DNA of 64,000 nt from Secundilactobacillus odoratitofui DSM 19909 = JCM 15043. Lineage in GTDB: Bacteria > Bacillota > Bacilli > Lactobacillales > Lactobacillaceae. Numbering within the stretch: the stretch's first letter is position 1; each line of letters begins with the position of its first letter. Position numbers and translations under genes: made by a program. Below are positions 26,036-61,657 of this stretch, piece by piece. The stretch spans positions 225,267 through 289,266 of the forward strand of contig NZ_AZEE01000029.1 of the NCBI RefSeq assembly GCF_001434895.1. The letters are read 5' to 3'. The notes beneath the pieces are model-generated. The model saw nothing but the letters and a program-made list of their open reading frames with translations, searched no databases and was not told where the DNA came from.

Positions 26036-26204
26036 CCAGCGTTGGTTTGGAACCTGAAGTGGGGACCGGGACGGGCCAAAAGGCGGTCTCGTCCCTCGCA
26101 TTTGAGTCTCACCGAGAACCATTGTGAGTCTCAAACGTCGTCCCGTGATATCAGGGAAGTTCGCCCTGATAACACCGTCACCACAGGTTCCAAACCAACG
26201 CTGG
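26036..26204. repeat. nested inverted-repeat element A (169 nt)
   Basis: Outer arms 26036-26056 and 26184-26204 are a perfect 21-bp inverted repeat. Inside are GGGACG/CGTCCC, a 12-bp pair with a single central mismatch (TTTGAGTCTCAC at 26100-26111 and GTGAGTCTCAAA) and a TATCAGGG/CCCTGATA hairpin. The core GAG-Y-CTCACC-R-AG ... GAGTCTCA ... ACGTC recurs, same orientation and mismatch position, in element B at 61497-61657. Possible structured ncRNA or dispersed repeat. Confidence 0.8.
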
Positions 26205-26426
26205 CGCTACGGCTTTACATTGATAAACATTGAAAAACTATGGTAAATAGTTTCTCTTAGTAAGCGACTAAATCATTTTTTCTATCATAAAATTCACAAA
26301 AATAGTGATAACACGCGAGGCTCACAAATAATCACAATCTTAGTGTTGTGTCTGTTGTTAGCCATCCGATTTCTGATGGCTAACAACGCGAATCAATGTC
26401 ACACTTCAACAAATATAATGCATTCA

Positions 26427-26492
26427 AAAAACGCTAAGTTTAAATAGATCCGCCCACTTATTTGAGTAAATCTATTTAAACTTAGCGTTTTT
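26427..26492. terminator. bidirectional terminator, 23-bp perfect stem
   Basis: Arms 26427-26449 and 26470-26492 are fully complementary with a 20-nt loop and A/T runs at the ends. It lies about 105 bp past the luxS stop and may terminate luxS transcripts. Confidence 0.75.
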
Positions 26493-26596
26493 AATTGTTT
26501 TCAATTGATTCTGAAGACTGATTTCGGCTCTGCCGAAACGTGTTCCTCGAAGCAGAGAGCTGCATCTAAACGCTTCTCGTCACACTCTCTTTCTTT

Positions 26597-27070
26597 TTAT
26601 ACTTCATGTCTTTCAAATGGTTGATCACTGATGCCATCGGCCAAAATTTTCTTTGACCATTCCTTGGCTGAGAACAATGAATGATCACGGTAGTTACCGC
26701 AACTGTAGATGTCAGTGCCTTGGACATCTTTCCATTCGATCTTGTTCGCGATTTCTTCAAGTGAGCTCTTAAGCGCCTTGGCAACTTCTGTCGTTGAATG
26801 TTCTCCCCAGGTAATCAAGTGAAAACCGGTCCGGCAGCCAAATGGTGAACAATCAATCACGCCATCTAAGCGATCACGTAAAAGTCCGGCTAACAAATGT
26901 TCAATCGTGTGCAACCCTGCTGTTGGGATTGCATTCTCATTTGGTTGTACCAACCGTAAATCGTAGTTGCTAATCGTGTCACCCTTCGTGCCGTGCTCTT
27001 CTGTAATCAAACGAACGTATGGTGCTTTAACCTTTGTGTGATCCAACGTAAAACTTTCGACTTTAGCCAT
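26597..27070 (-). CDS. luxS: S-ribosylhomocysteine lyase
   Basis: A 157-residue LuxS. The metal-binding HTIEH is at residues 54-58, the catalytic Cys is in SPFGCRTG (79), and SCGNYRDHS near 128 gives the third ligand region. It splits S-ribosylhomocysteine into homocysteine and DPD, the precursor of autoinducer 2, within the activated methyl cycle. Ribosome site AAAAGGGAGATCTTAT. The gene is monocistronic and preceded by a methionine T-box leader, tying its expression to uncharged tRNA-Met. Confidence 0.95.
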
Positions 27071-27135
27071 AATATAAGATCTCCCTTTTAACTAATTAGT
27101 TTAACGTTGTTAACGACGGCGGAGCTTACTGATAA

Positions 27136-27451
27136 CAAAAAAGCATTTCCATCCTTTAATCTTTCGATAAAAGGACGAAAATGCTTTCGTGTAACCACCT
27201 TAGTTCAAATACCCCTCGCGGAATATCTCTCAACGAGTACTAACTAACGGCGATTCAGTACTTACTGCTGTCAGCGCATACCCTAACGCTTTAACGGGCG
27301 TACCCGCAACTACTTAGCCATCGGTTCGGCAGTTGAGCGATTATCAAGACCATATTCGATGAATCATTCACGTTACCTTGCATCAACTGGTAACTCTCTT
27401 GAGAAAATAAATCATCTACTCATCTTGTCGCTTGCTTCGTATTAACAACTG
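27136..27451 (-). ncRNA. T-box leader (methionine specifier) of luxS
   Basis: All parts of a T-box can be read on the minus strand. Stem I: CAAGA pairs with TCTTG and GATGA with TCATC around an internal loop that presents ATG (complement of 27351-27353) after GAAT; the distal arm AGAGAGTTACC ... GATGCAAGGTAAC carries the conserved AGAGA and GATG bulges. The T-box AAGGTGGTTACACG is at 27190-27203, followed by a terminator hairpin (27141-27187) with T run; antiterminator and terminator share the segment after the T-box. Uncharged tRNA-Met would favour luxS expression. Confidence 0.88.
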
Positions 27452-27457
27452 ATGCTT

Positions 27458-27486
27458 ATTATGGCGCGAATGAAATACCCTGTCAA
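27458..27486 (-). promoter_or_regulatory. promoter of the luxS T-box transcript
   Basis: Minus-strand TTGACA (complement of 27481-27486), 17-bp spacer, CATAAT (complement of 27458-27463). Start of transcription is expected near 27451. Confidence 0.75.
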
Positions 27487-27634
27487 GAAATAATGAGTGT
27501 TTTTTAATCAATTGTCTCATTTTAAAGTTTAGATTTTGATTGTATAAATCCTTATAAATCAGTGATTATCACGTTAGTACCTGTATTTGAACCATCCCAT
27601 TTCTCATCTCCGATTAATTCCAAAAATATTTAGC

Positions 27635-27663
27635 TTGACTATATGTCGATAACGACGTATATT
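27635..27663 (+). promoter_or_regulatory. padA promoter
   Basis: TTGACT at 27635-27640, 17-bp spacer, TATATT at 27658-27663. Operator 1 fills the spacer. Confidence 0.75.
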
Positions 27664-27684
27664 GATCGATGTCGTTATCGACAT
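27643..27684. promoter_or_regulatory. two PadR operators upstream of padA
   Basis: Operator 2 at 27669-27684 is an exact ATGT-N8-ACAT, the recognised PadR site; operator 1 at 27643-27658 is ATGT-N8-ACGT, one mismatch. They are 26 bp apart centre to centre and together form an 18-bp inverted repeat, one in the promoter spacer and one over the early transcribed region, consistent with repression by the PadR encoded downstream. Confidence 0.8.
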
Positions 27685-27709
27685 ATAGCTTTAAAAAGGA
27701 GATATGAAC

Positions 27710-28246
27710 ATGACTAAAACATTTAAAACACTTGAAGACTTCTTAGGAACTCACTTTATCTACACTTACGACAATGGTTGGGAATACGAATGGTATGCGA
27801 AAAATGACCATACCGTTGATTACCGAATTCATGGTGGCATGGTTGCGGGCCGTTGGGTAACTGATCAAGAAGCCGATATTGTTATGCTGACTGAAGGCAT
27901 CTACAAAATTTCTTGGACTGAACCAACTGGTACTGACGTCGCCTTAGACTTTTTGCCAAATGAAGGTAAATTACACGGCACGATTTTCTTCCCAAAGTGG
28001 GTCGAAGAACATCCAGAAATTACCGTTACTTATCAAAACGAACACATTGATTTGATGGAAAGTTCTCGTGAAAAGTACGATACCTATCCTAAGTTGGTCG
28101 TACCTGAATTCGCAAAAATCGCCTACATGGGTGACGCTGGTCAAAATAACAATGATGTTATCTCAGAAGCCCCTTACGACGGTATCGTAAATGACATCCG
28201 TGAAGGCCGTTACTTTGATGCCCAATATCACCGTGTGAATAAATAG
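27710..28246 (+). CDS. padA: phenolic acid decarboxylase
   Basis: A 178-residue decarboxylase nearly identical in its first 60 residues to the L. plantarum enzyme as I remember it. Tyr18, Tyr20, Arg48 and Glu71, the active-site set of the family, are present. It converts p-coumaric, ferulic and caffeic acids to vinyl phenols, detoxifying plant phenolics without cofactor. ATG 27710 is chosen over ATG 27704, because AGGAGA is only about 3 nt from the latter and because family members start MTKTFKTL. The padR gene follows after 76 bp. Confidence 0.95.
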
Positions 28247-28322
28247 TTCCTGCAGCCTACGTTTACCGCCACCGCTGTTTATGGCATAATGGCGTTAGTA
28301 TGCAGTATTGGAGCGATGAATC

Positions 28323-28886
28323 ATGCCAAAGAAACGAACCCTACCCTACATTTTGCTTGGTCTCATTCATAGTAATCACCAATTATCCGGTTACCAGATG
28401 ATGCAAGAATTTAAGCATGAAATCAGCGATTTTTGGACCGCCTCACACAGTCAAATCTACCCAGAGCTACAGCGTATGACTGATGATGATTGGATTGCAC
28501 CTGTGACTTCACCATTCAATGTTGACACTAAACGCAATCAGACATTTTATCAGCTAACGGCCACTGGAGAGCAAGTTTTAGAGGACTGGCTGCGTGAGCC
28601 CCTAACGACCACAAACGACGATTTATTCCCGCTTAAACTCTTCTTCATTGATGACCAGCAAAGTGATTTACTCAAACCACTGATTGCTCAGCAGTTGCAG
28701 TTGAGTACTGATCGTCGCGATTACCTGCTCGGTCGTATGGCAACAGTTTTCCCCACCGAAGCTGAGATTCAAGCCCACTATGGCCATTATTTGACACTAA
28801 CGCGTGGCATTGAACGTGAAAGCAGCTACGTTAAATGGCTCGTTGACCTTGCAATTAGCCTAAACGATATTGATGATTCAAACTAA
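28323..28886 (+). CDS. padR: PadR family repressor of phenolic acid decarboxylase
   Basis: A 187-residue winged-helix regulator. LPYILLGLIHSNHQLSGYQMMQEF is the N-terminal wHTH start, WTASHSQIYPELQRM the recognition helix, and the C-terminal half a dimerising coiled coil. It should repress padA through the two ATGT-N8-ACAT sites and release on phenolic acid exposure, as known for PadR of Bacillus and Pediococcus. It lies 76 bp downstream of padA on the same strand, and no separate promoter is obvious, so negative autoregulation through padA readthrough is plausible. Confidence 0.88.
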   Translation: MPKKRTLPYILLGLIHSNHQLSGYQMMQEFKHEISDFWTASHSQIYPELQRMTDDDWIAPVTSPFNVDTKRNQTFYQLTATGEQVLEDWLREPLTTTNDDLFPLKLFFIDDQQSDLLKPLIAQQLQLSTDRRDYLLGRMATVFPTEAEIQAHYGHYLTLTRGIERESSYVKWLVDLAISLNDIDDSN

Positions 28887-28931
28887 AACCGGTTATGGAC
28901 ACCCCCTATTAGGTGGCCACAACCGGTTTTA
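28885..28931 (+). terminator. terminator after padR
   Basis: AAAACCGGTT with AACCGGTTTT, extended by ATGG/CCAC pairing, directly at the padR stop codon. Confidence 0.8.
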
Positions 28932-29064
28932 ATCTGCAAAAAATTACCAATATTATTATTAATATTGGCCCTTGAAACACTGATACACCAGTCATGCCTA
29001 GAAACTTTGCTAGCTATATGAGTAAAATTACTGTACCTTTGATTCAGGCAAAGGGGGAATTACA

Positions 29065-29667
29065 ATGAAATTTGGTGAACGATTGCAACACGAACGGCAG
29101 ACCCGCGACCTTACCCAAAAATCGGTAGCCAAGGCCATTAACGTCTCGCGTCAAACTATTTCAAGTTGGGAGACTGGTAACAGTTATCCAGATATCGATA
29201 GTCTCATTCAGTTGAGCGATTACTATGCCATTTCCTTAGATATTTTACTTAAGGAGGATAACGGCATGAAGGATTATCTCAAGAAACAGGACGTTTTGAC
29301 ACAGCTGGTACCACTACTCCAAGCAACCACAGTAATTGATATCTTATTTTTAATTTTTGTGATTTTCACACCAATTCACGGGATGGTCTCAATCATCGTT
29401 TACGCCATGGGAATCGTAAACGTTGTGGTCATTAGTAAAATAAAAACGTTCATTGAACAAGTTTCAAAACATCCGCGAATTCTGGCTTGGCCCCACAGAC
29501 GTTGGTGGGCCATCCTCATAAACGTGGTAATAACGCTTGGTTGTACAATCAGTTTTTACTTAACTAACCTGTCCGAATTAACCTGGAATCTATTTTTAAC
29601 CACCATTTGCTTTTGGGTGATTATTATTTTCGCAGAGTTTACTTATAGACGCACATTAAATCAATAA
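29065..29667 (+). CDS. membrane-tethered XRE-family regulator
   Basis: A 200-residue protein: an HTH_3 domain at residues 1-62 (VAKAINVSRQTISSWETGNSYPDIDSL) followed, after a short linker with MKDYLKKQDVL, by four hydrophobic segments from about residue 85 to the end. The same architecture, sequence pattern and spacing recur in the protein at 43916-44536. This design couples DNA binding to a membrane signal; the ligand is unknown. Ribosome site AAAGGGGGAATTAC. Nearest following gene is a YczE-like membrane protein 160 bp away behind a terminator. Confidence 0.75.
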   Translation: MKFGERLQHERQTRDLTQKSVAKAINVSRQTISSWETGNSYPDIDSLIQLSDYYAISLDILLKEDNGMKDYLKKQDVLTQLVPLLQATTVIDILFLIFVIFTPIHGMVSIIVYAMGIVNVVVISKIKTFIEQVSKHPRILAWPHRRWWAILINVVITLGCTISFYLTNLSELTWNLFLTTICFWVIIIFAEFTYRRTLNQ

Positions 29668-29679
29668 AATCGATCAAGG

Positions 29680-29718
29680 CCAGTTACTCACCATAAACGT
29701 TGAGGTAACTGGATTTTT
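29680..29718 (+). terminator. terminator after the XRE-membrane gene
   Basis: CCAGTTAC-TCA paired with TGAGGTAACTGG (one bulge), then ATTTTTCT. Confidence 0.65.
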
Positions 29719-29829
29719 CTGATTCATTTTCAGTTCACATTTAGTTTGCTCACCTTTTCAACATCTCTAAAAACCATTCAATCTTTTGCCGCATCATGCT
29801 AAACTAAAAAATGAAATGAGGCGGAGAAT

Positions 29830-30516
29830 TTGAAAAACACATTAAAAGAGCGGTGGATCGGTCTGATTGCCGGTCTGATTTGTAACGCGTTTGGGAATGC
29901 ACTTTCAATCGCGGGCAACATGGGAAGCGGCGTCTGGTCTGCTTCCGCGGTTAACTTACATAACTGGACTGGTATTAGTCTAGGGTTCATCTTGTTTTGT
30001 ATCGGTGTCATTAACGCCCTCACCAACCAAATCTTGATTCGGCGTTGGGACGGCAAACGTTTCTTTGGCGAAGTAATCTTTGTGATGTTCTTTGGTACTT
30101 TCGTCCAGTTCTTTGTTCACTGGTTTGATAGTATGGGGGCTAACACTGCACCGGTTATCTGGCGGTTGATTCTGAGCTGTCTTGGCATTGCGATTTTTTG
30201 TGTGGGTATCTCACTTTATCAACGGGCCAACATTTTCATGCACCCGAACGATGATACAACTAACATTTTGCGGTTTATGTACCTTAAAGGTAACGCCACG
30301 GCATCACAGTTATTGGACTTCTTACCACCAGTGATCGTAATCATCATTGCCTTCTTTGGTACCGGCCAAATCTTATCAATCAACCTTGCCACGCTGTTCT
30401 CAATATTATGTAACGGCGTCTTGATTGCCACGTCTGATCGGTATATCTGGCCGCGTTTGACACACAACTTCCGTACTAAAGCTGAACGGGAACGGGCGGC
30501 AGCATTAACCAAGTAA
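29830..30516 (+). CDS. YczE/YyaS-like (YitT-related) integral membrane protein
   Basis: A 228-residue protein with five to six hydrophobic segments. The first helix LIAGLICNAFGNALSIAGNMGSGVWSA contains the glycine-rich pattern of the YczE family. It starts at TTG 29830, just after GAGGCGGAG; no ATG in frame is well placed. Family members are associated with small-molecule or lipopeptide resistance, but no function is established. The C-terminal tail is basic and cytoplasmic. Confidence 0.65.
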   Translation: MKNTLKERWIGLIAGLICNAFGNALSIAGNMGSGVWSASAVNLHNWTGISLGFILFCIGVINALTNQILIRRWDGKRFFGEVIFVMFFGTFVQFFVHWFDSMGANTAPVIWRLILSCLGIAIFCVGISLYQRANIFMHPNDDTTNILRFMYLKGNATASQLLDFLPPVIVIIIAFFGTGQILSINLATLFSILCNGVLIATSDRYIWPRLTHNFRTKAERERAAALTK

Positions 30517-30547
30517 GTTTTTGATTATTTCCCGGGTTATTTAAAAT

Positions 30548-30598
30548 AAAAACAAGCGCCATAACAGCGATAGATTCGCTACTATGGCGCTTGTTTTG
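30548..30598. terminator. bidirectional terminator
   Basis: Fourteen-bp stem AAAACAAGCGCCAT / ATGGCGCTTGTTTT between convergent genes. Confidence 0.85.
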
Positions 30599-30616
30599 TG
30601 TAAACAATCAATGGGC

Positions 30617-31093
30617 TTATTTCTCAAACTTAGGTTTTTGCGTGTGTGAAAAAACTTGTTCTTGATTTTTAATTTCGAAGTGGGCAGTTCCATCTTCATC
30701 ATTATCAGATTCAACGTAAGGCACATCATCGCTGTCAAAAATGACGATTTGGCCCATTTCCCGGTTGATAATCAAATCAATTGAGTATTCTTGGAACATC
30801 GTCAATTGGTTTTTTTGCGTCAATTGAACAATAGCGACCATCCCAGTTTCAACGATAAAACGAACACCTTGGATGTGCACGCCGTTGTCATCTTTGCCCA
30901 TATGGTTAAAATGACTCTCATTGTTAGTCGGAATAATTGCGACAAAAGCATCTTTATCTAAGGAATGCAGGCAAGCCGTTAGATAATCACAAATCTGTTC
31001 ATCCGTTTTGTTGCCGCGTTGTGCGTCATATTGTTCTCGTTGTTCCTTGTTCAATAAATAAGTTGGATCCGTCACCATGTACTGATATTGCAT
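30617..31093 (-). CDS. hypothetical cytoplasmic protein
   Basis: A 158-residue soluble, acidic protein with no recognised domain. Start at ATG 31093 with GTAGGTG upstream; the GTG at 31102 lies in that site. Residues 20-60 look helical; 80-130 alternate as beta strands (VRFIVETGMVAIVQL, IDLIINREMGQIVIFD). The C-terminus is lysine-rich. It stands alone, convergent with the YczE-like gene. I cannot assign a function. Confidence 0.5.
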   Translation of the reverse strand: MQYQYMVTDPTYLLNKEQREQYDAQRGNKTDEQICDYLTACLHSLDKDAFVAIIPTNNESHFNHMGKDDNGVHIQGVRFIVETGMVAIVQLTQKNQLTMFQEYSIDLIINREMGQIVIFDSDDVPYVESDNDEDGTAHFEIKNQEQVFSHTQKPKFEK

Positions 31094-31232
31094 GTGGTGC
31101 ACCTACTTTCAAATGTGTTGGTTGAATAAATCTATTTTAGCCTATTTAAGCCGTTTTAGGTTTAATTTTTATTTAGTTTCAAGACTGTTACCTAATCTAA
31201 ACGTACGCCAAAACATAGGTCCCGGCCATCTA

Positions 31233-31282
31233 GAAAACGGGCCCGTGAATTCCAAAAATCAGGAATCCGCGGGCTCGTTTTC
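31233..31282. terminator. bidirectional GC-rich terminator
   Basis: Imperfect 21-bp arms (31233-31253 and 31262-31282) starting GAAAACGGGCC and ending GCTCGTTTTC. It is placed past the TetR stop codon on the minus strand. Confidence 0.7.
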
Positions 31283-31316
31283 TGATATTCTGGGACTTAA
31301 ACGAGTTTTGCCCACT

Positions 31317-31961
31317 CTATTTCAAAAAGCCATGTTCCAATATCCGGTACTCGCTGCGAATCTGCTGAATAAAGGGCTCAAAGTCCTCAATGCCAGCCTC
31401 AGGATGTTCTGCCATGAACTTCTGTGAATCGGCAAAGACCTGATTGGTGACTGCATTGAGTAATCGCTGTAAGTCATCCTGGTCAACATCATCACGAATA
31501 GGCATTCGATCCAGGACTGGTTTTTCCAACAAATCCACTGACATTGTGGTTTGATTTTGCCAGTACTGAGCCATTTCAGTCTGTACATCGTCTGGTAGTA
31601 CACTCATCTCCGAAAATGAACGGATAGAAAGCCGAAACTCATCTGGATACTCTAGCTGTAAACTAATTTTATACCGTAACGCCCGTGAAATCATGTCACT
31701 CAAATCCTGTGCATCCTGCCACACTTTAAAGTCGGCAACATCAGTTAATCGCTCAATGACATACTGCACCGTTGCTAAAAACAGGTGGCCTTTGTCGCCA
31801 AAGTAACGAAAAACAATCCCTTTTGAAACGTCTGCCGCCTTGGCAATATCAGCAGTTTTGGCTTGTTGATAGCCTTCCAGCGCAAAAATATGGGTGGCAC
31901 TTTGCATGATTCGGCTAACTTTGGCCGGATCCTTGGGTACATCTGGACGAACACTTAACAT
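31317..31961 (-). CDS. TetR family regulator of the ABC exporter
   Basis: A 214-residue TetR protein. The N-terminal HTH is recognisable at about residues 15-62: IMQSATHIFALEGYQQAKTADIAK and the recognition helix DVSKGIVFRYFGDKGHLF. The rest is the alpha-helical ligand-binding and dimerisation domain. It lies 24 bp downstream of the ABC permease in the same transcript, behind GAAAGGAGCCCGTT. It probably represses the operon from the ATTGACC/GGTCAAT dyad at 34590-34622, giving autoregulation. Confidence 0.8.
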   Translation of the reverse strand: MLSVRPDVPKDPAKVSRIMQSATHIFALEGYQQAKTADIAKAADVSKGIVFRYFGDKGHLFLATVQYVIERLTDVADFKVWQDAQDLSDMISRALRYKISLQLEYPDEFRLSIRSFSEMSVLPDDVQTEMAQYWQNQTTMSVDLLEKPVLDRMPIRDDVDQDDLQRLLNAVTNQVFADSQKFMAEHPEAGIEDFEPFIQQIRSEYRILEHGFLK

Positions 31962-31985
31962 AACGGGCTCCTTTCAAGATATTGA

Positions 31986-34512: not shown

Positions 34513-34577
34513 GTTTGTCCCCTCCCAAAGTCGCGGCCTTAAGCCGTCGAACGAGGTATATTTATGATTGCAAACAG

Positions 34578-34622
34578 AGTATAAATCTCATTGACCAGTA
34601 AGTCAATGACTTGCGGGTCAAT
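34578..34622 (-). promoter_or_regulatory. promoter and TetR-type operator of the ABC exporter operon
   Basis: Minus-strand TTGACT (complement of 34601-34606), 17-bp spacer, TATACT (complement of 34578-34583). Overlapping it are ATTGAC/GTCAAT (34590-34607) and a wider ATTGACC/GGTCAAT (34590-34596 and 34616-34622), a likely operator for the TetR protein. Confidence 0.7.
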
Positions 34623-34684
34623 TTCGAAAAATAATTTGTGTTCCCTTGATATGACGCGTTTAACTAGTCCGATAAACTAAATCT

Positions 34685-34715
34685 TTGACTTTGAGTACAC
34701 TCTAAACGGTATACT
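34685..34715 (+). promoter_or_regulatory. MerR-type promoter of aldo/keto reductase 1
   Basis: TTGACT at 34685-34690 and TATACT at 34710-34715 are separated by 19 bp, with GAGT-AC-ACTC centred in the spacer. Over-long spacers with a central dyad are the hallmark of MerR-activated promoters, here of the AdhR/NmlR aldehyde-stress type. Confidence 0.65.
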
Positions 34716-34747
34716 AATTCTGTGTAAATTGATGAGGAGGATTCAAT

Positions 34748-52439: not shown

Positions 52440-52496
52440 TTGAATCGCTCCTTCACTTAATTGATGACTTTAGTTTAAAGCGCTTTATGAAGGATT

Positions 52497-52634: not shown

Positions 52635-52669
52635 CGCCTTTCACTGGAAACTCTCTCTGTTAGGCGATT
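52629..52669 (+). promoter_or_regulatory. attenuator-like hairpin between leader peptide and DMT gene
   Basis: Seven-bp perfect stem with a 23-nt loop containing pyrimidine-rich CTCTCTCT, then GATTTT. It begins in the leader's last codons. Weak as an intrinsic terminator, so translation-coupled folding is as likely. Confidence 0.45.
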
Positions 52670-52706
52670 TTACCAATTAAAATCAAACATAACGGAGCGT
52701 AATACT

Positions 52707-53600: not shown

Positions 53601-53779
53601 GCAATTATGGCAACTGGCTCACCACTACCCCCTTATTAATTTTTGAAATTTCGAATTTCATTTGAATTGAGGTTTTACTTTGTTATATCAATTATTTCAC
53701 TGGCTTATCGTCCGTACCGAAAGTCCCTTTGAGTTGGCGTTTTAAACAACCAAATTTTTATTGAAGGGAAAGTCGCTAT

Positions 53780-54970: not shown

Positions 54971-54997
54971 GCGATTGCTAACGAGGTCTCGTTAGTC

Positions 54998-55042
54998 AAA
55001 AAGCCAACCATAACTTCTAATTGAAATTATGGTTGGCTTTTT
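54998..55042. terminator. terminator after the MFS exporter
   Basis: Perfect 16-bp stem (54998-55013 with 55027-55042) with T run. Confidence 0.88.
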
Positions 55043-55571
55043 AGTATGATTTTAGTTGTATATTAAACACTGACAGTACTTTTAAATTAAAGTTTTTACA
55101 GGTGTAATTAATCGTTCACAAAGTTAGCTGAATTGCGACAAGACACAGCAAAAATCTCCCCAACAAGCTCACCTCATCGTGAAGCTGTAGTTGAAAAAAC
55201 ACGCGCTCGCAAGTTTGTGTGTACGAAAGGAAGTTTAGATATAGCTAATGCTGGTCCACGTGTATAGATCTTCACGACTGTGGATGAGGTTAATTGAAGA
55301 GATTTCGATAGGAGCTGCAGCACTTTTATGTAAAGCGCTTACAACTAAAGTATAACACTTTTGAATATAAAGTAATTCTGTATTTCATTATCGTTTTGAT
55401 AATTATAAGCGTATGTTATAACGTGATGATATCAAAAAACAGTCATCAAATTAGGGATGACTGCCGTACCAGCATAATACCGATTATGGTATTCATTAAT
55501 AACATCTAATATCTAAACGATTACACTTATTTATTTACATAAAATAAATTTTGTAAGCTTCCCCTTACTAA
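55043..55571. other. gene-free region with a long-range inverted repeat
   Basis: No convincing gene in 529 bp. ACCTCATCGTGAAG (55171-55184) pairs with CTTCAC...GATGAGGT (55270-55275 and 55283-55290), closing an element of about 120 nt. On the minus strand a 48-codon ORF starting at GTG near 55323 crosses it without a clear ribosome site. TGTAAAGCGCTTACA at 55329-55343 is a degenerate cre. Two short hairpins (CAGTCATC/GATGACTG at 55440-55463, AATACC/GGTATT at 55476-55493) precede the stop of the next minus-strand gene. Confidence 0.45.
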
Positions 55572-55874
55572 CTACCGTTGAAAAATCACGTGATTGATTC
55601 CCATGACATTCATCACGTAAAGCGCCAACACAAGCGCATTGATTGCAGCTGAAACTAAAATGATGCCGTACGAGATAGTCGCGCTAAAAAGGCCAAACAA
55701 CCAGCCATTTCGATATTTACGGCCACGGAACGTGAAGCACCAGCCAATCAAGAGTAACGTTGCCACCACCTGAACGATGAGGCCCACAATATAGACGCCA
55801 GTACTCCCATGACTAGTTTGAAATAGGTAAGTTGCTACGGTGATAATATCCAATAGAATTGCAAAAAAAGGCAT
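55572..55874 (-). CDS. small membrane protein
   Basis: A 100-residue protein with three hydrophobic segments: MPFFAILLDIITVATYLF, VGLIVQVVATLLLIGWCFTF and SYGIILVSAAINALVLALYV, separated by a basic loop RGRKYRNGW. Start ATG 55874, 8 nt after TGGAGGAG; the longer reading crosses the ribosome site. No family recognised. Confidence 0.58.
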   Translation of the reverse strand: MPFFAILLDIITVATYLFQTSHGSTGVYIVGLIVQVVATLLLIGWCFTFRGRKYRNGWLFGLFSATISYGIILVSAAINALVLALYVMNVMGINHVIFQR

Positions 55875-56032
55875 GCTGATCTCCTCCAAATACGACTTGA
55901 TGTCGAAAAACGCCACCATAGGCCAACGCCATCAATGATAACCATCATTTTACCGCTTTACTTAGTAGACAACCATATCCCAATCATTTTTAAGGTATAA
56001 TTTAAGAAGTACATGATAGGAGCTTAATACAT

Positions 56033-56764
56033 ATGCAATGGTTTTTCATTATTTTCCCGGCAATGTTGGCCGGCTTAGTGCAGGGGTTAACCGGTTTTGG
56101 TACCGGAATTGTTCTAATGATTTTCCTACCCGCTATTTTGCCAATGTCAACCAGTGCTGGTGTTGCGGCTTTGATTCCAATGGTCTCAATTGCCATTATG
56201 GTCCACCGTTACCACGACGCGCTGCACTTTAAACGCCTCATTTGGCCGTTTTTAGTTTATGCCAGTGTGGCTACCTGGTCGATTCATCTTGGCAAGGTTT
56301 TAGACGTCACCTTCTTGAAGTTAATGCTAGGTTGCCTGCTTTGCGTCCTCTCGTTGTATTTCTTATTCGTTAAATCAGCTGCTAACCGCCACTATCCACT
56401 TGTTGTTGCCGTCATTTTCACCATTATTTCTGGCTTTTTTAACGGCCTCTTTGGGATTGGCGGCCCGTTAATGGCGCTCTATTTTCTATCATTGGCTGAA
56501 TCAAAGGAAACCTACATGGCCTCAATTCAAACTTTCTTCCTGATTGACATGACTTATGTTACCGGCGTTCGTCTCGCCAACGGCATTTTTACACCACAGG
56601 ATCTGCCCATCATTCTCGTTGGCATACTTGGCGCTGTCATCGGCACCATTATCGCCAACCACCTGTTGACTCGGCTTAATCTAGACGTCATCCGCCAAAT
56701 CATCTACGTCTTTATCGGCTTTAGTGGCGTGTTTTACCTCGTAACGTCATTACAATCCATCTAA
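56033..56764 (+). CDS. TauE/SafE family sulfite/anion exporter
   Basis: A 243-residue membrane protein with seven to eight helices of the TauE/SafE (TSUP) family. GLVQGLTGFGTGIVLMIFLP in the first helix pair and GFFNGLFGIGGPLMALYFLS in the second are the two signature repeats. Such proteins move sulfite, sulfoacetate or other organosulfur anions. Start ATG 56033 with ATAGGAGCTTAATACAT. Monocistronic, convergent to a LysR gene. Confidence 0.8.
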   Translation: MQWFFIIFPAMLAGLVQGLTGFGTGIVLMIFLPAILPMSTSAGVAALIPMVSIAIMVHRYHDALHFKRLIWPFLVYASVATWSIHLGKVLDVTFLKLMLGCLLCVLSLYFLFVKSAANRHYPLVVAVIFTIISGFFNGLFGIGGPLMALYFLSLAESKETYMASIQTFFLIDMTYVTGVRLANGIFTPQDLPIILVGILGAVIGTIIANHLLTRLNLDVIRQIIYVFIGFSGVFYLVTSLQSI

Positions 56765-56767
56765 AAT

Positions 56768-56807
56768 GACCCTGACTGTGTCCACATGGCAGTTAGGGTC
56801 GTTTTTT
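56768..56807. terminator. terminator after the TauE gene
   Basis: GACCCTGACTG with CAGTTAGGGTC and a run of six T. Confidence 0.8.
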
Positions 56808-56844
56808 AATTGCGTCAATAACAGCGTCACGACTCTAAACAGTA

Positions 56845-57720
56845 TCAACGCTTCACAGTCTTAAATAATCGAACAAAATCCTCAATCAACATTGTGTTCA
56901 CATTGTCTGGTCGGGTCACTAAATGTGCATGTATGTGGTTTTCAATAGCCGTCTCACAGGCAAACAAAACTCCAGCCCGTAGTTCTGATTCGACCATCAC
57001 GCGTGGCAGATAGCTGAACCCTAATCCGGTTGCAACAACCGATTTAATAGCAGCAATACTTGGCAACATGATAGTCGGAAACAGTCGCTGATGTCCTTGC
57101 CAAACAGCCGTCTCAAATTGATTACGATATGAGCAATCTGGCTCATTAATGATAAAGGTGGCGGCACTTGACCGTAACAGCTCACTAAAATGCTGATGTG
57201 GTCGATTGGTGACTAAAACCATCTCTTGCTCGCCCAAATCATGGTCAATTAACTGAGCCTTAGGTTGACTAGGCCACATCATCAAGGCCACATCAACATC
57301 GCCACGTATCAGTGCCTCTTCATTGTGAAGACAAGTGGCATTTTGTAATTTCACCTCAACTTGCGGGTGTTGCTGCTTAAATTGTTGTAACGCCGTTGCC
57401 ACCATCGTCACGGTCAACGATTCGGGCGCGGCCACCTTTAGCTGACCGACTTGTTGTTGGGTGGCTGCAAACTGCTGGACTGTTCCATAGTCTTGTAGCA
57501 ATCGTTCAACTAAAGGCATTAGCGCATGTCCTGCCGCTGTTAAATGAACGCGATGCTGGTCGTATTTCAGCAAAGTTTGACCAATCTCAGCCTCTAGCTT
57601 GCGCATCTGCATCGAAATGGTCGATTGCGTATAACCAAGTTGCACCGCTGCCTTTGAATAACTGTGTGTTGACACGATCATTTGAAATGTAATGAGTTGT
57701 CGAATTTCGATAACAGGCAC
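56845..57720 (-). CDS. LysR family transcriptional regulator
   Basis: A 291-residue LTTR. The wHTH spans residues 1-60 (LGYTQSTISMQMRKLEAEIGQTLL as recognition helix region), and the periplasmic-binding-like effector domain follows from about 90. It is divergent from the GNAT gene at 57823, with TATCAA/TTGATA repeats between them. Likely targets are the GNAT gene or the TauE exporter. Effector unknown. Confidence 0.82.
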   Translation of the reverse strand: MPVIEIRQLITFQMIVSTHSYSKAAVQLGYTQSTISMQMRKLEAEIGQTLLKYDQHRVHLTAAGHALMPLVERLLQDYGTVQQFAATQQQVGQLKVAAPESLTVTMVATALQQFKQQHPQVEVKLQNATCLHNEEALIRGDVDVALMMWPSQPKAQLIDHDLGEQEMVLVTNRPHQHFSELLRSSAATFIINEPDCSYRNQFETAVWQGHQRLFPTIMLPSIAAIKSVVATGLGFSYLPRVMVESELRAGVLFACETAIENHIHAHLVTRPDNVNTMLIEDFVRLFKTVKR

Positions 57721-57724
57721 CTTC

Positions 57725-57761
57725 TATCAATTATTTTGATACTGAATATGATTACTATCAA
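57725..57761. promoter_or_regulatory. TATCAA/TTGATA dyads between LysR and GNAT genes
   Basis: TATCAA (57725-57730), TTGATA (57736-57741) and TATCAA (57756-57761) form two overlapping inverted repeats directly upstream of the LysR start, a plausible LTTR site; spacing is wider than the common T-N11-A. Confidence 0.45.
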
Positions 57762-57822
57762 TTTTACTTTTAATTCTCTCTACCATACACTAACAGTAAC
57801 CATATTTTCAACGGAGGTCTTT

Positions 57823-58308
57823 ATGAAAATTCTACCCTTTGAACCTAATTATCATCATACTGCACAATTAGTGGATCTCATTAACTACTGTCAAAACCTG
57901 GAAGCACACCTCAAGATTAAGATGGCCGAACAAGACGACATCTTTAATATTCCAGCCTACTATCAACAATCTGGCGGTAACTTTTGGTTAGCATTGGACC
58001 AGGACAAGGTCGTTGGCTGCATTGCGCTGCTACCCATTGATGCCAACACCGCCGTACTCAAAAAGTTTTTTACCTATCCAAGCTATCGTGGCAATCCCAT
58101 TCGTCTCGGCCAAAACCTCTATGATACCTTGATCAACTTTGCCAAAGCACATCAGTTCACTCGGTTGGTGCTTGATACACCAGAAGCCGAACACCGTTCA
58201 CACACCTTTTATGAGCGTCAAGGATTCCAACAAATTACGGGTGCACAACTCCACGTCGCTTACCCGTATCCCGATCGCAATTCACGCTTGTATGAACTCA
58301 CTTTATAA
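57823..58308 (+). CDS. GNAT family N-acetyltransferase
   Basis: A 161-residue acetyltransferase. NFWLALDQDKVVGCIAL is strands 2-4, and LKKFFTYPSYRGNPIRLGQNLYDTL contains a variant of the acetyl-CoA loop (R-G-N-P-I-R in place of R/Q-xx-G-x-G/A). HTFYERQGFQQI is the C-terminal strand-turn. Start ATG 57823 after ACGGAGGTCTTT; upstream in-frame sequence overlaps the LysR gene and is noncoding. Substrate unknown. Confidence 0.75.
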   Translation: MKILPFEPNYHHTAQLVDLINYCQNLEAHLKIKMAEQDDIFNIPAYYQQSGGNFWLALDQDKVVGCIALLPIDANTAVLKKFFTYPSYRGNPIRLGQNLYDTLINFAKAHQFTRLVLDTPEAEHRSHTFYERQGFQQITGAQLHVAYPYPDRNSRLYELTL

Positions 58309-58365
58309 GGAATAAATCAAACATCCAACACTGTTACTTGCTGGGTGTTTTCAATTAACAATTTC

Positions 58366-58379
58366 TGTAAGCGTTTACA
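58366..58379. promoter_or_regulatory. cre overlapping the adh promoter
   Basis: TGTAAGCGTTTACA fits TGWAANCGNTNWCA perfectly and is itself nearly palindromic. Its right half TTTACA (58374-58379) doubles as a -35 box, 16 bp from TAATAA, so CcpA binding would block transcription of the zinc ADH. Confidence 0.75.
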
Positions 58380-58436
58380 TTTGCCTAATTTTGTGTAATA
58401 ATGATCAATGATTTAAGACGTGAAAGGACTGAATTT

Positions 58437-59561
58437 ATGATGAAAATTAAAGCTGCTGTTGTTGAAAAACAAAACGCTGATTTTGAAATTAAAGATGATG
58501 TCGAACTCGCCGAAATGGGTCCTGATGATCTCCAAGTTCACATGGTTGCCAGTGGGATCTGTCATTCCGATGAGGCGCTCCGAATTGGGGACGCCGTCAT
58601 TGATTACCCGATCGTTCTTGGCCATGAAGGTTCTGGGATTGTCGAAAAGGTTGGGCCAGAAGTGACACAGTTTAAGCCAGGCGATCACGTTGTCCTCAGC
58701 TTTTACGGCTGTGGTAACTGCAAGAGTTGTCTTAAGGGCATTCCGACCCAGTGTGAAAATTACGCTGCTAATAACCTCTCTGGCGTTCGCCCAGATGGGA
58801 GCGCCCACTTCACTGAAAATGGCCATAAAGTCGCTGACATGTTTGATCAAAGCTCCTTCACGTCAACGACGGTGGTGCGTGAACGTAATGCCGTTAAAGT
58901 TGATCCAACACTCGACTTACGAAAACTTGGTCCTTTGGGCTGCGGCTACGTGACCGGTTCTGGTACGGTGCTGAACACCTTGAAGCCAAAGCCTGGCGAT
59001 ACCATCGCCGTATTTGGTACCGGTGCCGTTGGTTTGGCTGCTATGATGGCTGGCCGAATCTCTGGTTGCACTAAAGTGATCGGCATTGATATTGTTGACT
59101 CACGTTTGGATTTAGCCAAAGAATTAGGCGCTACCGACGTTATCAATAGTAAAAACGTTGACGTCGTTCAGGCCGTTAAAGACTTAACTGATGGCTACGG
59201 TGTTAACTGGGCCGTTGATACCACCGGTGTGACTGCTGTGATGGAAAATTCCATTAAAGTGCTTGCTCAAGGCGGTACCACTGCTACCATTGCCGTCACA
59301 CCAAACCACATTGACGTTGATACTTGGAACGACCTTTGTGTTGACGACAAGAAGATCGTTGGCGTCAACATGGGCGATTCAATTCCTCAAGTTGATATTC
59401 CACGTCTCATCGACTTCTACAAGATGGGTATGTTTGACTTCGACAAGACCGAAAAATTCTACAAATTTAGCGAAATTAACGAAGCCAATGCTGACTCCCG
59501 CTCAGGTAAAACCATCAAACCTGTGCTGGTAATTGACGAAGACTACAAACCTGGTGAATAA
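58437..59561 (+). CDS. zinc-dependent NAD(P) alcohol dehydrogenase, class III/aryl type
   Basis: A 374-residue MDR alcohol dehydrogenase. GICHSDEALR holds the catalytic-zinc Cys, LGHEGSGIVEKVG the zinc His and Glu, and GCGNCKSCLKGIPTQC the four cysteines of the structural zinc. GTGAVGLAAMMAGR is the Rossmann loop, IGIDIVDSR suggests NAD. It resembles aryl- or benzyl-alcohol dehydrogenases. ATG 58437 after GAAAGGACTGAATTT. cre control suggests expression once preferred sugars are gone. Monocistronic. Confidence 0.85.
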   Translation: MMKIKAAVVEKQNADFEIKDDVELAEMGPDDLQVHMVASGICHSDEALRIGDAVIDYPIVLGHEGSGIVEKVGPEVTQFKPGDHVVLSFYGCGNCKSCLKGIPTQCENYAANNLSGVRPDGSAHFTENGHKVADMFDQSSFTSTTVVRERNAVKVDPTLDLRKLGPLGCGYVTGSGTVLNTLKPKPGDTIAVFGTGAVGLAAMMAGRISGCTKVIGIDIVDSRLDLAKELGATDVINSKNVDVVQAVKDLTDGYGVNWAVDTTGVTAVMENSIKVLAQGGTTATIAVTPNHIDVDTWNDLCVDDKKIVGVNMGDSIPQVDIPRLIDFYKMGMFDFDKTEKFYKFSEINEANADSRSGKTIKPVLVIDEDYKPGE

Positions 59562-59576
59562 TCTCACCTAACTAAC

Positions 59577-59592
59577 CGTTACACGTGAAACA
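59577..59592. other. near-perfect parS site 4
   Basis: CGTTACACGTGAAACA differs from the ParB consensus TGTTNCACGTGAAACA only at the first base. Confidence 0.65.
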
Positions 59593-59600
59593 ATGGTTAC

Positions 59601-59638
59601 AAAATAAGCACCTTCCATTTCTGGAAGGCGCTTATTTC
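59601..59638. terminator. terminator after adh
   Basis: AAATAAGCACCTTCC with GGAAGGCGCTTATTT, 6-nt loop; also faces the Doc-like gene. Confidence 0.8.
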
Positions 59639-59646
59639 TGATGTCA

Positions 59647-60030
59647 TTATTTCGCTTTCAAATGCTTGTTAAAGATATCAAATAGTTCAGTTTCTTCGAA
59701 TTCTCCCGCATCCACTCGCTTAACAAGTGCCACAAATTCATCATCGGTAAACGTCAGCTCGTATCCGTTAAGATCAGCTAATGCAGCAACAGCGGTAGCT
59801 GCTGTCTGCAAATTTTGACTCACAAAGGGTTTCCCCGAAATAATTGCAGCCAGTAAAAAGCCAGTTTTGTTGGCAACCATTTCGTGTAAATTGCGATCAT
59901 AAAAATTGGCTTGCGGTACTGCGATAATTTTATCCAGTTGATCAGCCTTGTTAAGTCCAGGCTGCTGACCGTTTTTAATCACTAGCCGGCTATTAATGGC
60001 AATCAGCTCGTCAGCTGTAATATAGCGCAT
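59647..60030 (-). CDS. Doc-like toxin with degenerate Fic motif
   Basis: A 127-residue Fic/Doc-fold protein. YITADELIAINSRLVI is the Doc N-terminus and AALADLNGYELTFTDDEF the C-terminal part. The normally invariant HxFx(D/N)xNKR motif reads KPFVSQNLQ: the His, the acidic residue, Lys and Arg are replaced, leaving Phe and Asn. Kinase or AMP-transfer activity is therefore unlikely. It overlaps the antitoxin stop by 1 nt. Confidence 0.7.
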   Translation of the reverse strand: MRYITADELIAINSRLVIKNGQQPGLNKADQLDKIIAVPQANFYDRNLHEMVANKTGFLLAAIISGKPFVSQNLQTAATAVAALADLNGYELTFTDDEFVALVKRVDAGEFEETELFDIFNKHLKAK

Positions 60031-60251
60031 TAGGCCTCACCTCGTAATTGTGTCAGCGCACCGTCAAATTGATCAATTACTGCATTTAAAGTCGTATAAA
60101 ATTGGTTATCTAATTGGATATTATTCCGAAAGGCTACGTCGATGGCGTCGCCTTTTTGAACATCCAATTTACGTGCAATGTTGGCCGGAATGGTGATAGC
60201 CAAAGAATTGCCGACTTGAATGATTTGACGTTGCGATTTGATTTCGTTCAT
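60030..60251 (-). CDS. AbrB/MazE-type antitoxin of the Doc-like pair
   Basis: A 73-residue protein with a SpoVT/AbrB swapped-hairpin DNA-binding domain: IIQVGNSLAITIPANIARKLDVQKGDAIDV. The tail from residue 45 on would bind the toxin. It precedes the toxin gene, as usual for antitoxins, with GAAAGGAAC upstream. It would bind and autoregulate its promoter region at 60252-60310. The retained antitoxin with a dead toxin suggests a domesticated regulator. Confidence 0.75.
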   Translation of the reverse strand: MNEIKSQRQIIQVGNSLAITIPANIARKLDVQKGDAIDVAFRNNIQLDNQFYTTLNAVIDQFDGALTQLRGEA

Positions 60252-60355
60252 CTTAATAAACCCGTTCCTTTCGTTATAACAATTTCACATTTGTACATGG
60301 CTATTATAGCATACCCGTTAATATCATTCAGGTAATTATCTCTAATTAATCAAAT

Positions 60356-60399
60356 AACCAGTGCACACCTTTTATCAATTTAAAAGGTGTGCACTGGTT
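60356..60399. terminator. perfect hairpin terminator after LysR
   Basis: Arms 60356-60373 and 60382-60399 (18 bp, perfect) lie past the LysR stop at 60414. No long T run, so termination strength is uncertain. Confidence 0.65.
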
Positions 60400-60413
60400 A
60401 TTTGTCGTGTAAC

Positions 60414-61307
60414 TTATGCTTCAATTTTCATTTGCATCAAATCATGAACAAACTGATTCTCGTCCGCAGTGAGTACGTAGCCCTTTCGCGTCACCACTGA
60501 AATGTTAAACCGTTCGGGAAGTGGATCACGAATTGTGATACTGGCAATATCAGCTGCATCATTATCCGAAATCACATCAGCCACAATCAAACTAATGCCA
60601 AGGTTTTCTTTTACCAGGCTCTTGATCCAAGAAATATCTGGTGTTTTATAAATCACCGGTGGATTGATACCTGAATACTCACAGTAAGCTTTAAACGCCT
60701 TGGGATGCACGAATTTGCGGTTTAACATAATGAATTTTTCGTTCGCTAATTGCTTAAAACTAACGCTGGTTTGATCCGCCAATGGATGTTGTTGACTTAC
60801 AATCAGGTTAAAGGGCCGGCTACCCAATCGGCGAACTTCGAGCGATGGTTCGTGCAACGGTAGGACTGAAGCCAGTAACGCAATGTCAATTTGGCCGTCA
60901 CGAACATCTTCTAATAAGCCACCAGAACCAGTTTCTACAACATCCAAACGCTGTAACAGTCCTTCTTTTAGCAATTGCCCCGCCAGGGACGGAAAGTACA
61001 ATGTTCCAATGATGGGTGGTAAGCCAAATCGGATTTTAGCTAATCGCGCATTTTCAATTTCTTGATGGGCCAAGTCGAGGTTATCAGCAATCACGCGGGC
61101 TTTTTCATAAAGCAGCAGCCCTGCTCGAGTAATTTCAGTCCGATGATGGGCACGGTCAATGTGGACCAACTCACCTTCAAATTCACGCTCTAAGCGCTTA
61201 ACAGCTTGGGTCACAGTTGGCTGCGAGACACTGAACGTCTCAGCGACGGCTGTATAATTACGCTTCTCAACCAACGCTTTAAAATACGCCAAATCCTTCG
61301 TATTCAT
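60414..61307 (-). CDS. LysR family regulator of the dicarboxylate/fumarate reductase genes
   Basis: A 297-residue LTTR. The wHTH at 1-60 reads FSVSQPTVTQAVKRLEREFEGELV; the effector domain includes RFGLPPIIGTLYFPSLAGQLL near 95-115. It lies downstream of the transporter gene on the same strand, 515 bp away. By position it likely responds to malate, fumarate or a related acid and controls the operon upstream, as CitR/MleR-type regulators do; inference. Confidence 0.8.
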   Translation of the reverse strand: MNTKDLAYFKALVEKRNYTAVAETFSVSQPTVTQAVKRLEREFEGELVHIDRAHHRTEITRAGLLLYEKARVIADNLDLAHQEIENARLAKIRFGLPPIIGTLYFPSLAGQLLKEGLLQRLDVVETGSGGLLEDVRDGQIDIALLASVLPLHEPSLEVRRLGSRPFNLIVSQQHPLADQTSVSFKQLANEKFIMLNRKFVHPKAFKAYCEYSGINPPVIYKTPDISWIKSLVKENLGISLIVADVISDNDAADIASITIRDPLPERFNISVVTRKGYVLTADENQFVHDLMQMKIEA

Positions 61308-61496
61308 GATGTGCCCCCTGTCTTATTCATTAAGGATTAGCTTATCACAAATCGAAGCTTGAAAAAATACTGAAATCAACCATTCAACCCGTTCTCGTTT
61401 TATATTTTGTTCAAAATACATTCAAAATGAAAAATTTTTAACTCGTGTATATACCCCTACTTAATCTCACACTAAGATATGACACTACCACTACGT

Positions 61497-61657
61497 GCTA
61501 GCGGGGGCGGCTGCTGTGGAACCAGCTGCAGCCACGGTACACGTGTCTTACGCTTCGTTTCTGAGCCTCACCAAGCCCGCGAGTCTCAGAAACGTCCAGT
61601 TCCACTAAATGCTACGCGTTAAGTGGAGCTTTTCACTGCAACCGCTCCCCCGCTAGC
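61497..61657. repeat. nested inverted-repeat element B (161 nt)
   Basis: Outer arms GCTAGCGGGGG (61497-61507) and CCCCCGCTAGC (61647-61657) are perfect and extend imperfectly inward. The core GTTTCTGAG-C-CTC / GAG-T-CTCAGAAAC (61557-61593) has a single central mismatch, as in element A, and shares GAG-Y-CTCACC-R-AG and GAGTCTCA...ACGTC with it. A further TCCACT/AGTGGA hairpin follows, as in element A where TATCAGGG/CCCTGATA follows. Confidence 0.75.

Follow-up and report, generated by a model that had tools for sequence, protein, structure and literature searches.

Two nested hairpins of Secundilactobacillus odoratitofui represent an apparently undescribed, large family of mostly paired, folded intergenic sequences in lactobacilli

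The two nested hairpins analysed here are members of a large and apparently undescribed family of ~200-base intergenic folded sequences, present in several groups of lactobacilli. They lie in a stretch of 64,000 nt (hereafter the window) of Secundilactobacillus odoratitofui DSM 19909 = JCM 15043 (GCF_001434895.1, contig NZ_AZEE01000029.1, positions 225,267-289,266, forward strand). The best explanation, to which slightly less than an even chance is given, is that the elements are the ends of a two-ended extragenic repeat unit, similar to REPINs and BIMEs in a large format and kept by selection. The similarity is one of kind, and descent is not implied.

Both elements are located where an earlier note on this DNA had placed them (Table 1), and both fold far better than shuffled sequences, none of 200 shuffles being as good in either case. 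The fold of element 1 reaches -100.7 kcal/mol (z -10.4), and that of element 2 reaches -81 (z -7.1). The outer inverted repeat, which had been called perfect in both, is unbroken over 22 bp in element 1, where it encloses three inner hairpins, but has a 2-nt interruption in element 2 (61497-61510 with 61642-61657). The inner hairpin GAG-Y-CTCACC...GAGTCTC is common to the two and contains the same single central mismatch, as had been noticed (C.T on the plus strand, A.G on the minus strand). Element 2 is 190 bp upstream of a LysR-type gene, and its minus-strand reading follows the direction of that gene. The elements had been described as free of ORFs; element 1 is in fact overlapped by mechanical ORFs such as 25958-26233, which nothing marks as genes. 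When the window was scored unfiltered with a covariance model, the strong members were the cores at 61513-61639 (108.7 bits) and 26056-26184 (80.5 bits), with weak scores only on the opposite strand of the same two places (16.5 and 11.2 bits).

Table 1. Features of the two elements and adjoining genes (coordinates of the window)
Feature	Coordinates	Strand	Basis
Element 1, whole nested fold (subtype A, LE-type)	26035..26205	- (strand with conserved-looking pairing)	folding; covariance-model core 26056-26184
Element 1, outer stem P1, left arm (22 bp; partner 26184-26205)	26035..26056		folding
Element 1, outer stem P1, right arm	26184..26205		folding
Element 1, hairpin P2	26068..26095		folding
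Element 1, hairpin P3, conserved core GAG-Y-CTCACC...GTGAG-T-CTC, single mismatch	26098..26138		sequence and folding
Element 1, hairpin P4	26145..26175		folding
Element 2, whole nested fold (subtype B, LE-type)	61497..61657	- (strand with conserved-looking pairing)	folding; model core 61513-61639
Element 2, hairpin P2	61524..61554		folding
Element 2, hairpin P3	61556..61594		sequence and folding
Element 2, hairpin P4	61598..61630		folding
luxS, adjoins element 1 (context only)	26597..27070	-	Pfam PF02664, E 1.1e-52
YjbR-family gene, adjoins element 1 (context only)	25627..25986	+	Pfam PF04237, E 5.4e-12
LysR-type regulator gene, adjoins element 2 (context only)	60414..61307	-	Pfam PF03466 and PF00126

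Further copies are abundant. The inner-hairpin pattern has 14 matches in this genome and is found in three of 301 genomes of the family, this one included, while the same pattern read backwards has no match; the likeness thus exceeds chance. With 150 of 496 candidates scored, the covariance model gives a lower bound of 134 copies in this genome; eight of 142 listed matches were dropped (six being weak scores on the strand opposite a strong match, and two further weak ones). Matches are observed in 38 of 251 Lactobacillaceae genomes and in seven of 40 genera. Among 150 scored candidates per genome, members of at least five lactobacilli genera carry 96 to 147 copies; two genomes of one genus (g16) have 147 and 119. 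Three genomes of a streptococcal-type lineage (f3/g42) have one copy each, between purE and purD. The earlier proposal, an undescribed family that would be either conserved RNA or mobile hairpins, is supported by the many intergenic copies and their covarying arms. Neither a known MITE nor an Rfam family at its cut-off was found to correspond to it. There were no Rfam matches at the gathering score in the window, and 14 further loci searched at lax thresholds gave nothing near the cut-off on any element. The same lax search detected cspA and PyrR beside elements, and sR53 inside the locus L022 at chance level (E 4.9). The pattern search in viral contigs gave no match. No match was found by blastn against plasmids with one unit each of L. 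brevis and of this genome, or against phages with one unit of this genome. One Gemmatimonadota MAG contains 20 matches (E up to 0.001, best 9.8e-8) with the hairpin motif AGCC...GTCT in common. The four loci viewed are three tandem hairpins without an outer stem, and these matches are not counted as members.

Each element is a branched fold of ~170-215 nt in which an outer stem, long and variable, leads to an inner junction and the hairpins P2, P3 and P4; the fold contains conserved mismatches. In a correction to the earlier note, the usual unit is an inverted pair, consisting of a left end (LE), a spacer and an inverted right end (RE). In this genome, all 46 neighbours less than 700 bp apart are arranged plus then minus, yet 42 of the 134 copies have no listed partner. 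Four other genomes, sampled over 400 kb, show 33 plus/minus, no minus/plus and three same-strand neighbours. The spacer is AT-rich and 40-301 bp long (n = 20 pairs). The subtypes of LE and RE are matched between partners. Of 46 pairs, 20 (17 once the three reference units are left out) have two partners that each resemble a reference by 80% or more, and every one of these is A/H, B/E or F/G. In the 29 classifiable pairs (cut-offs of 0.68 identity for the left end and 0.62 for the right, with several thin margins), LE and RE are of different subtypes, unlike the near-identical terminal inverted repeats of MITEs. Identity between members of one subtype averages 82-93%, whereas in the 14 units compared the spacers and outer flanks resemble one another no more than shuffled DNA does.

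The arms change and yet keep pairing, as had been claimed. Compensatory change is strong, occurring in 31 of 53 base pairs against 18.7 in shuffles, with a covariation of 0.357 against 0.149. For extra pair types, the count of 54 hardly exceeds the 50.6 of the shuffles, and 39 of 500 shuffles reached it. Elements are retained at orthologous sites, and compensatory change affects 11 of 67 element pairs in one set of orthologous copies and 15 of 68 in another, terminator pairs being left out. The arms had been described as unrelated in sequence; this is mostly so between subtypes, but much arm sequence is common to copies within one subtype. The differing arms in the comparison of L039 and L046 first suggested arm replacement but are better explained by an old tandem duplication in which different parts were then lost. 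At one orthologous locus the divergence is 2.3% for LE, 9.5% for the spacer and 4.2% for neighbouring coding sequence. The RE side is not slow in the same comparison (core 5.0%, right arm 29.5%; paralogous copies seem to be mixed there).

The strand that carries the constrained fold is the reverse of the one first read. In 105 copies in 14 groups, both strands were folded, pairs with a non-Watson-Crick majority were left out and RNase P was used as a control. The mismatch pattern places the constrained fold on the opposite strand in 13 of the 14 groups, with one tied. G.T exceeds A.C on the reverse strand (187 against 51), which also gives the more stable consensus fold in all 14 groups. A.C exceeds G.T on the model strand (146 against 57), although the folding program favours G.U there. 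The RNase P control gave 71 to 1 on its true strand and 19 to 11 on the wrong strand, and a small tRNA control gave 12 G.T and 3 A.C. Two groups have little or no preference (g24, 5 to 4; g15, 3 to 3). An earlier, unrefined count (87 copies, nine groups) had given A.C 127 and G.T 101, and because these looked about equal, constraint at the DNA level was first inferred. The refined two-strand test gave the reverse-strand preference, so stems kept as double-stranded DNA palindromes are rejected. The conserved pairing looks strand-specific and tolerant of G.U, as in an RNA gene, whether the molecule is RNA or single-stranded DNA. LE and RE each favour their own reverse strand, and these lie on opposite DNA strands of one unit; read along the constrained strand, the two members of a pair diverge.

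Elements are rare in divergent intergenic regions (one of 29 loci) and more frequent in convergent ones (nine). Terminator-like sites on the strand of the neighbouring gene occur at 51 of 163 elements (12.0 in shuffles) and on the constrained strand of the element at 24 of 163 (5.8 in shuffles). On the constrained strand, -35-like hexamers 20-120 nt upstream of the core number 26-27 per 20-nt bin against 15-22 in shuffles, and -10-like hexamers upstream are at or below shuffles. For these promoter-like and terminator-like counts, ten named rows and identical duplicates were left out. In this genome, all 29 classifiable units are oriented alike relative to GC skew; with both partners at 0.80 or above, it is 20 of 20 (14 on negative-skew and six on positive-skew contigs). 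This orientation lock is absent in Levilactobacillus, where the higher-scoring partner was taken as LE, and it is rejected as a general rule. Copy depletion at the terminus, which was placed by GC skew, gene strand and dnaA, is only suggestive. Among the matches listed, there is no copy at 100-680 kb of contig C5, around the skew switch. Six 20-kb samples from inside this gap yielded nothing and another, at its edge, a single match; four of eight samples from other contigs were also empty, and contig C1 (107 kb) has no copy among the matches listed. In L. brevis, copies are thinner but not absent at 1.8-2.55 Mb (13 of 92 listed, ~23 expected), and the sign change of the GC skew falls within 1.86-2.68 Mb.

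For the two-ended repeat unit, the following course is proposed. Units would spread within chromosomes as whole units, by machinery that may recognise a folded single strand, either RNA or single-stranded DNA, and in this lineage a replication-linked step could be involved. After the spread, selection would keep the units as folded extragenic elements behind gene terminators. Several observations count against this explanation. A one-strand DNA intermediate would not predict the preference of LE and RE for opposite strands. Plain unit copying does not account for unrelated spacers whose length is type-specific, except where drift has taken them to saturation. The failure of the orientation lock in Levilactobacillus, the copies without a listed partner, the RE side that is not slow and the small excess of extra pair types are also unfavourable. 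No movement was observed. Against mobility, this genome has no Y1 (RAYT-type) transposase (no match to PF01797), no target-site duplication was seen by eye at the presumed borders of 20 units, and no empty site was found, the luxS locus being uninformative. PF01797 is present in four of ten genomes (five matches in G234 and one each in G201, G282 and G185). REPINs driven by a Y1/RAYT transposase are thus rejected for this genome.

A multi-copy structured RNA family is a close rival of the repeat unit, though rather doubtful in itself. Each element would be transcribed from the reverse strand and work as RNA, either as an independent sRNA or as read-through RNA from the neighbouring operon, and a pair would then consist of two RNAs, each directed outward from the spacer. 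The strand asymmetry with its G.T excess, the more stable reverse-strand fold, the RNase P control and the -35-like hexamers all fit such an RNA. In addition, the three purE-purD single copies overlap the sRNA family SSRC8_2 (RF02616) on the same strand, below its cut-off. The lack of any excess of -10-like hexamers does not fit, nor do terminator-like sites that are fewer on the constrained strand than on that of the neighbouring gene, or the indifference of g24 and g15; a hundred or more paralogous loci per genome is also unusual for an RNA gene. A broader statement has a somewhat better chance, still well below even: that these elements are a previously unnoticed class of structured RNA, or of folded single-stranded DNA, with ~100 or more retained copies per genome in at least five lactobacilli genera. 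Its partner-matched pairs would point apart and, in at least one species, have an orientation tied to replication; the streptococcal-type lineage would keep single copies at one place. This would make a new genome-wide paired element and not a REP variant.

It is improbable that the pairs are chromosome-structure elements, namely folded DNA or protein-binding sites at operon boundaries that act on supercoiling or domain limits. Such a role has been proposed for BIMEs, and the position behind terminators, the rarity in divergent regions, the orientation lock and the gap around the skew switch in this genome, and the thinning of listed copies in L. brevis are consistent with it. The strand asymmetry is unlike a double-stranded site, though, 13 of 15 genomes of the genus carry only 0-6 copies, and Levilactobacillus has no orientation lock. 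Ordinary non-autonomous insertion elements (MITEs) in neutral decay, whose palindromes are kept perfect by template switching and not by selection, are disfavoured and very improbable. High copy number, inverted ends and intergenic position would be expected of them. However, under symmetric correction G.T and A.C should be equally frequent and the conserved mismatches should disappear, subtype members are alike while their spacers are random, and LE at the orthologous locus, if not the RE side, is slower to change than the spacer and the adjoining coding sequence.

In the common food bacterium Levilactobacillus brevis, the 147 copies of ~200 bases confirmed in one genome already account for ~1% of the chromosome; the repeat has no name in any library used. 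How two-ended repeats spread when no transposase is evident can be tested naturally on partner-matched ends with unrelated spacers. The strand test provides a simple means of asking whether other "DNA repeats" are in fact RNA. Should the RNA interpretation hold, a large RNA family would have been overlooked for its resemblance to repetitive DNA.

The comparison with known systems refers to the accessible parts of the literature searched, in which no description of such repeats in lactobacilli was found. The stem-loop sequence families of PMC2267715, such as Bcr1 and Efa-1 of E. faecalis (163 nt, 65 copies), are likewise dispersed, foldable and mostly intergenic, a likeness in description. The only lactobacillus found in the accessible part of that paper is L. 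johnsonii, whose family Lac-1 is in coding regions. SSRC8 gave a Northern blot signal and its ends were determined by RACE in S. pyogenes; it is presented there as an sRNA and not as a family of repeats (PMC3675131, accessible part). The three single-copy relatives match SSRC8_2 at model positions 140-237 or 152-209 of 281 on the predicted strand, at 34.6-39.8 bits against a gathering score of 72 bits. GTAG- and CGTC-tagged REPs are extragenic palindromes often found in dimers, and CGTC-tagged families have no dedicated transposase, but these REPs are simple hairpins of 20-40 bp (PMC3733652, accessible part); the word Lactobacillus is absent from the main text of that paper. REPINs are RAYT-associated REP doublets that form hairpins, with compensatory changes reported (PMC3116915, accessible part). 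Their ends are 16-mers overlapping a REP, in contrast to the branched ends of ~170-215 nt observed here; short single-hairpin ends of about 16-40 bp are not seen in this family. The LE and RE subtypes also differ from each other here, and this genome lacks a Y1 transposase. Common to both are the many extragenic copies and the inverted doublets of conserved LE and RE ends around a less conserved spacer, the arrangement of all 46 close neighbours in this genome.

Both window elements, proposed in the earlier note as nested hairpins, are real: none of 200 shuffles of either equalled its folding energy. They share, as described there, the hairpin GAG-Y-CTCACC...GAGTCTC with a single mismatch. Scoring with R1, a covariance model built from 13 copies without the outer stem, gives two members in the window. 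Nothing in the window matches Rfam, and elements of 14 further loci gave no Rfam score near any cut-off. Plasmid and phage searches with the units tried and a search of viral contigs with the hairpin pattern returned no match. The repeat family was not found described in the Rfam, plasmid, phage and literature searches (published, mostly open-access papers).

By eye, the interval between luxS and element 1 contains a strong terminator-like hairpin that has an A run as well as a T run (AAAAAACGCTAAG...CTTAGCGTTTTT). This genome has luxS copies on contigs C7 and C2, whose identity to the luxS of the window is 100% and 88%; of the 15 genomes in the genus, 12 carry two copies.

Coordinates of the features in the window, in this genome (G000) and at two further loci
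Feature	Sequence	Position	Folded stretch	Energy (kcal/mol)	z
Element 1	window	26035-26205	26030-26210	-100.7	-10.4
Element 2	window	61497-61657	61490-61664	-81	-7.1
Terminator-like hairpin	window	26420-26500			
luxS copy	G000:C7	251866-252336			
luxS copy	G000:C2	57044-57511			
Copy-free region around skew switch (among matches listed)	G000:C5	100-680 kb			
Tandem RE comparison	L039	896-1340			
Tandem RE comparison	L046	2453-2660			

The inner-hairpin pattern matched 14 times in this genome and was present in 3 of 301 family genomes. A stricter pattern found nine stretches in named genomes, seven from Levilactobacillus and two from one Gemmatimonadota MAG. The covariance-model search suggested in the earlier note brought many further copies: with 150 of the 496 candidates scored and an E limit of 1, R1 gave at least 142 matches here, and after eight were dropped at least 134 copies remained, a lower bound. 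In the genus survey 11 of 15 genomes match, with at least 140 copies in this genome, at least 85 in one other and 0-6 in the remaining 13; two zero-copy genomes again gave 0 matches with 141-150 candidates scored. With 13 candidates scored per genome, 38 of the 251 genomes in the family match, and so do 7 of the 40 genera. When 141-150 candidates were scored and E was limited to 0.001, single genomes had at least 122 (genus g24), 96 (g38), 122 (g15), 147 (g16), 22 (g4) and 10 (g12) matches. Two genomes of g16, G234 and G201, gave at least 147 and at least 119 matches from 150 scored of 931 and 612 candidates. A class-wide sample of 348 genomes, with 9 candidates scored in each, contains four that match: this genome and three from family f3; the latter have one copy each, also with 131-150 candidates scored.

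Tandem hairpins, each with a GAGCC...GTCTC mismatch motif, are seen at several loci of the Gemmatimonadota MAG G646 (L044, L045, L237, L244, L251, L258). Its R1 matches with E not above 0.001 number at least 20, the best having E 9.8e-8. The hairpin module is shared with this other phylum, perhaps by convergence.

Among the copies of this genome, neighbours less than 700 bp apart are + then - in 46 of 46 cases; therefore 92 copies stand in pairs, and 42 have no partner among the matches listed. Four other genomes, over 400 kb in all, gave 33 +/- pairs, no -/+ pair and three same-strand pairs. A unit reads LE, spacer and inverted RE, and its end subtypes are partner-matched in this genome (A/H, B/E, F/G): in 20 of the 46 pairs each partner reaches 80% identity or more to a reference, and all 20, three of them the reference units themselves, have matched subtypes. 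For 14 units of these types, within-subtype identity averages 82-93%; identity is at the shuffled level for spacers (0.48-0.51) and for outer flanks (0.50-0.52). Spacers measured in 20 pairs are 40-301 bp long with 29-40% GC. Borders are recognisable by eye in 20 units, and no target duplication is visible in 20 units so examined. In one unit type (L060, L069, L076) the spacer contains a further short palindrome similar to GTGCCTATT...AATAGGCAC, in several orientations.

By simple ORF calls, 29 loci of this genome lie between convergent (9), tandem (13 + 6) or divergent (1) genes. In 51 of 163 elements, against 12.0 expected from shuffles, the outer flank has a terminator-like site on the model strand, on which the gene that ends there is also encoded. 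If GC skew is taken to mark the direction of replication, LE is on the left in 22/22 classifiable units on negative-skew contigs and on the right in 7/7 on positive-skew contigs; 12 same-class and 5 unclassified pairs are outside this count. Some classification margins are thin; the 20 well-classified pairs agree too. All six classifiable units between convergent genes (five on negative-, one on positive-skew contigs) agree, which makes it unlikely that gene direction alone accounts for the pattern. In Levilactobacillus, units occur in both orientations. Unlike C2, C4, C7, C8 and C11, contig C5 has a long region around its skew switch with no copy among the matches listed (chance ~1e-9, assuming 88 independent, evenly spread units); six 20-kb samples inside it were empty, but so were 4 of 8 elsewhere.

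The element structure is under selection. In 30 Levilactobacillus-genus LEs, 96.5% of cells are paired (85.2 shuffled) and covariation is 0.357 (0.149 shuffled), lost when partners are slid; pair types are barely higher (54 vs 50.6). The earlier claim that changing arms keep pairing is borne out: both sides change in 31 of 53 LE pairs (18.7 shuffled), and copies at orthologous sites of different species stay paired despite two-sided changes: downstream of a yhgE/pip gene, in five species, this holds for 11 of 67 element pairs, and downstream of ahpF, in four species, for 15 of 68. One gene per set was named by NCBIfam and the rest recognised from residues. At one locus common to L. wangkuiensis and L. 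mulengensis, divergence is 2.3% for LE and arms, 9.5% for the spacer, 4.2% for the neighbouring putative galM-like gene, 5.0% for the RE core and 29.5% for the RE right arm; in that arm, copies seem mixed by an old duplication. A comparison of L039 with L046 shows a tandem duplication of RE in which one copy is truncated, and the two species apparently retained different RE copies with different outer arms.

A strand folding as RNA drifts via G.U, which the opposite strand shows as A.C. For 105 copies in 14 groups, the reverse strand gave G.T 187 and A.C 51, and the reader's strand 57 and 146; there the folding program itself favours G.U, yet A.C dominates. The consensus fold is more stable on the reverse strand in 14/14 groups, and 13 lean to it with one tied, weakly in g24 (5 to 4) and RE type G (8 to 5). 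The identical procedure on RNase P RNA of 20 genomes gave 71/1 on the true and 19/11 on the wrong strand. In two ortholog alignments counted by hand on the reader's strand, leaving aside a single pair with G.U throughout, gene terminators have G.U in 7 and 8 cells and A.C in 0 and 2, and adjoining elements G.U in 0 and 2 and A.C in 7 and 8. Because single-stranded DNA would likewise favour G.T to some degree, RNA is favoured rather than proved as the folded molecule. Below-threshold matches to the sRNA family RF02616 (SSRC8_2) in f3 relatives fall on this same strand. The single f3 copies L209, L210 and L211 (G595, G424, G622) lie between purE and purD and partly overlap RF02616. PMC3675131 gives SSRC8 as a transcript detected in S. 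pyogenes.

A multi-copy RNA family, which the strand test most directly suggests, is the main rival and close behind the favoured explanation. Own transcription would agree with -35-like hexamers exceeding shuffles upstream of elements, but -10 hexamers show no excess and terminators only some. We favour a two-ended repeat with conserved ends and an interchangeable spacer, extragenic, which would amplify as whole units and later be retained; a folded single strand may be recognised, and one step may be linked to replication. Y1 transposases were absent from this genome and present in 4 of 10 genomes searched. Such a repeat would be REPIN-like at larger scale. By description only, it can be set beside Efa-1 of E. 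faecalis, given in PMC2267715 as a foldable intergenic family of 163 nt with 65 copies.
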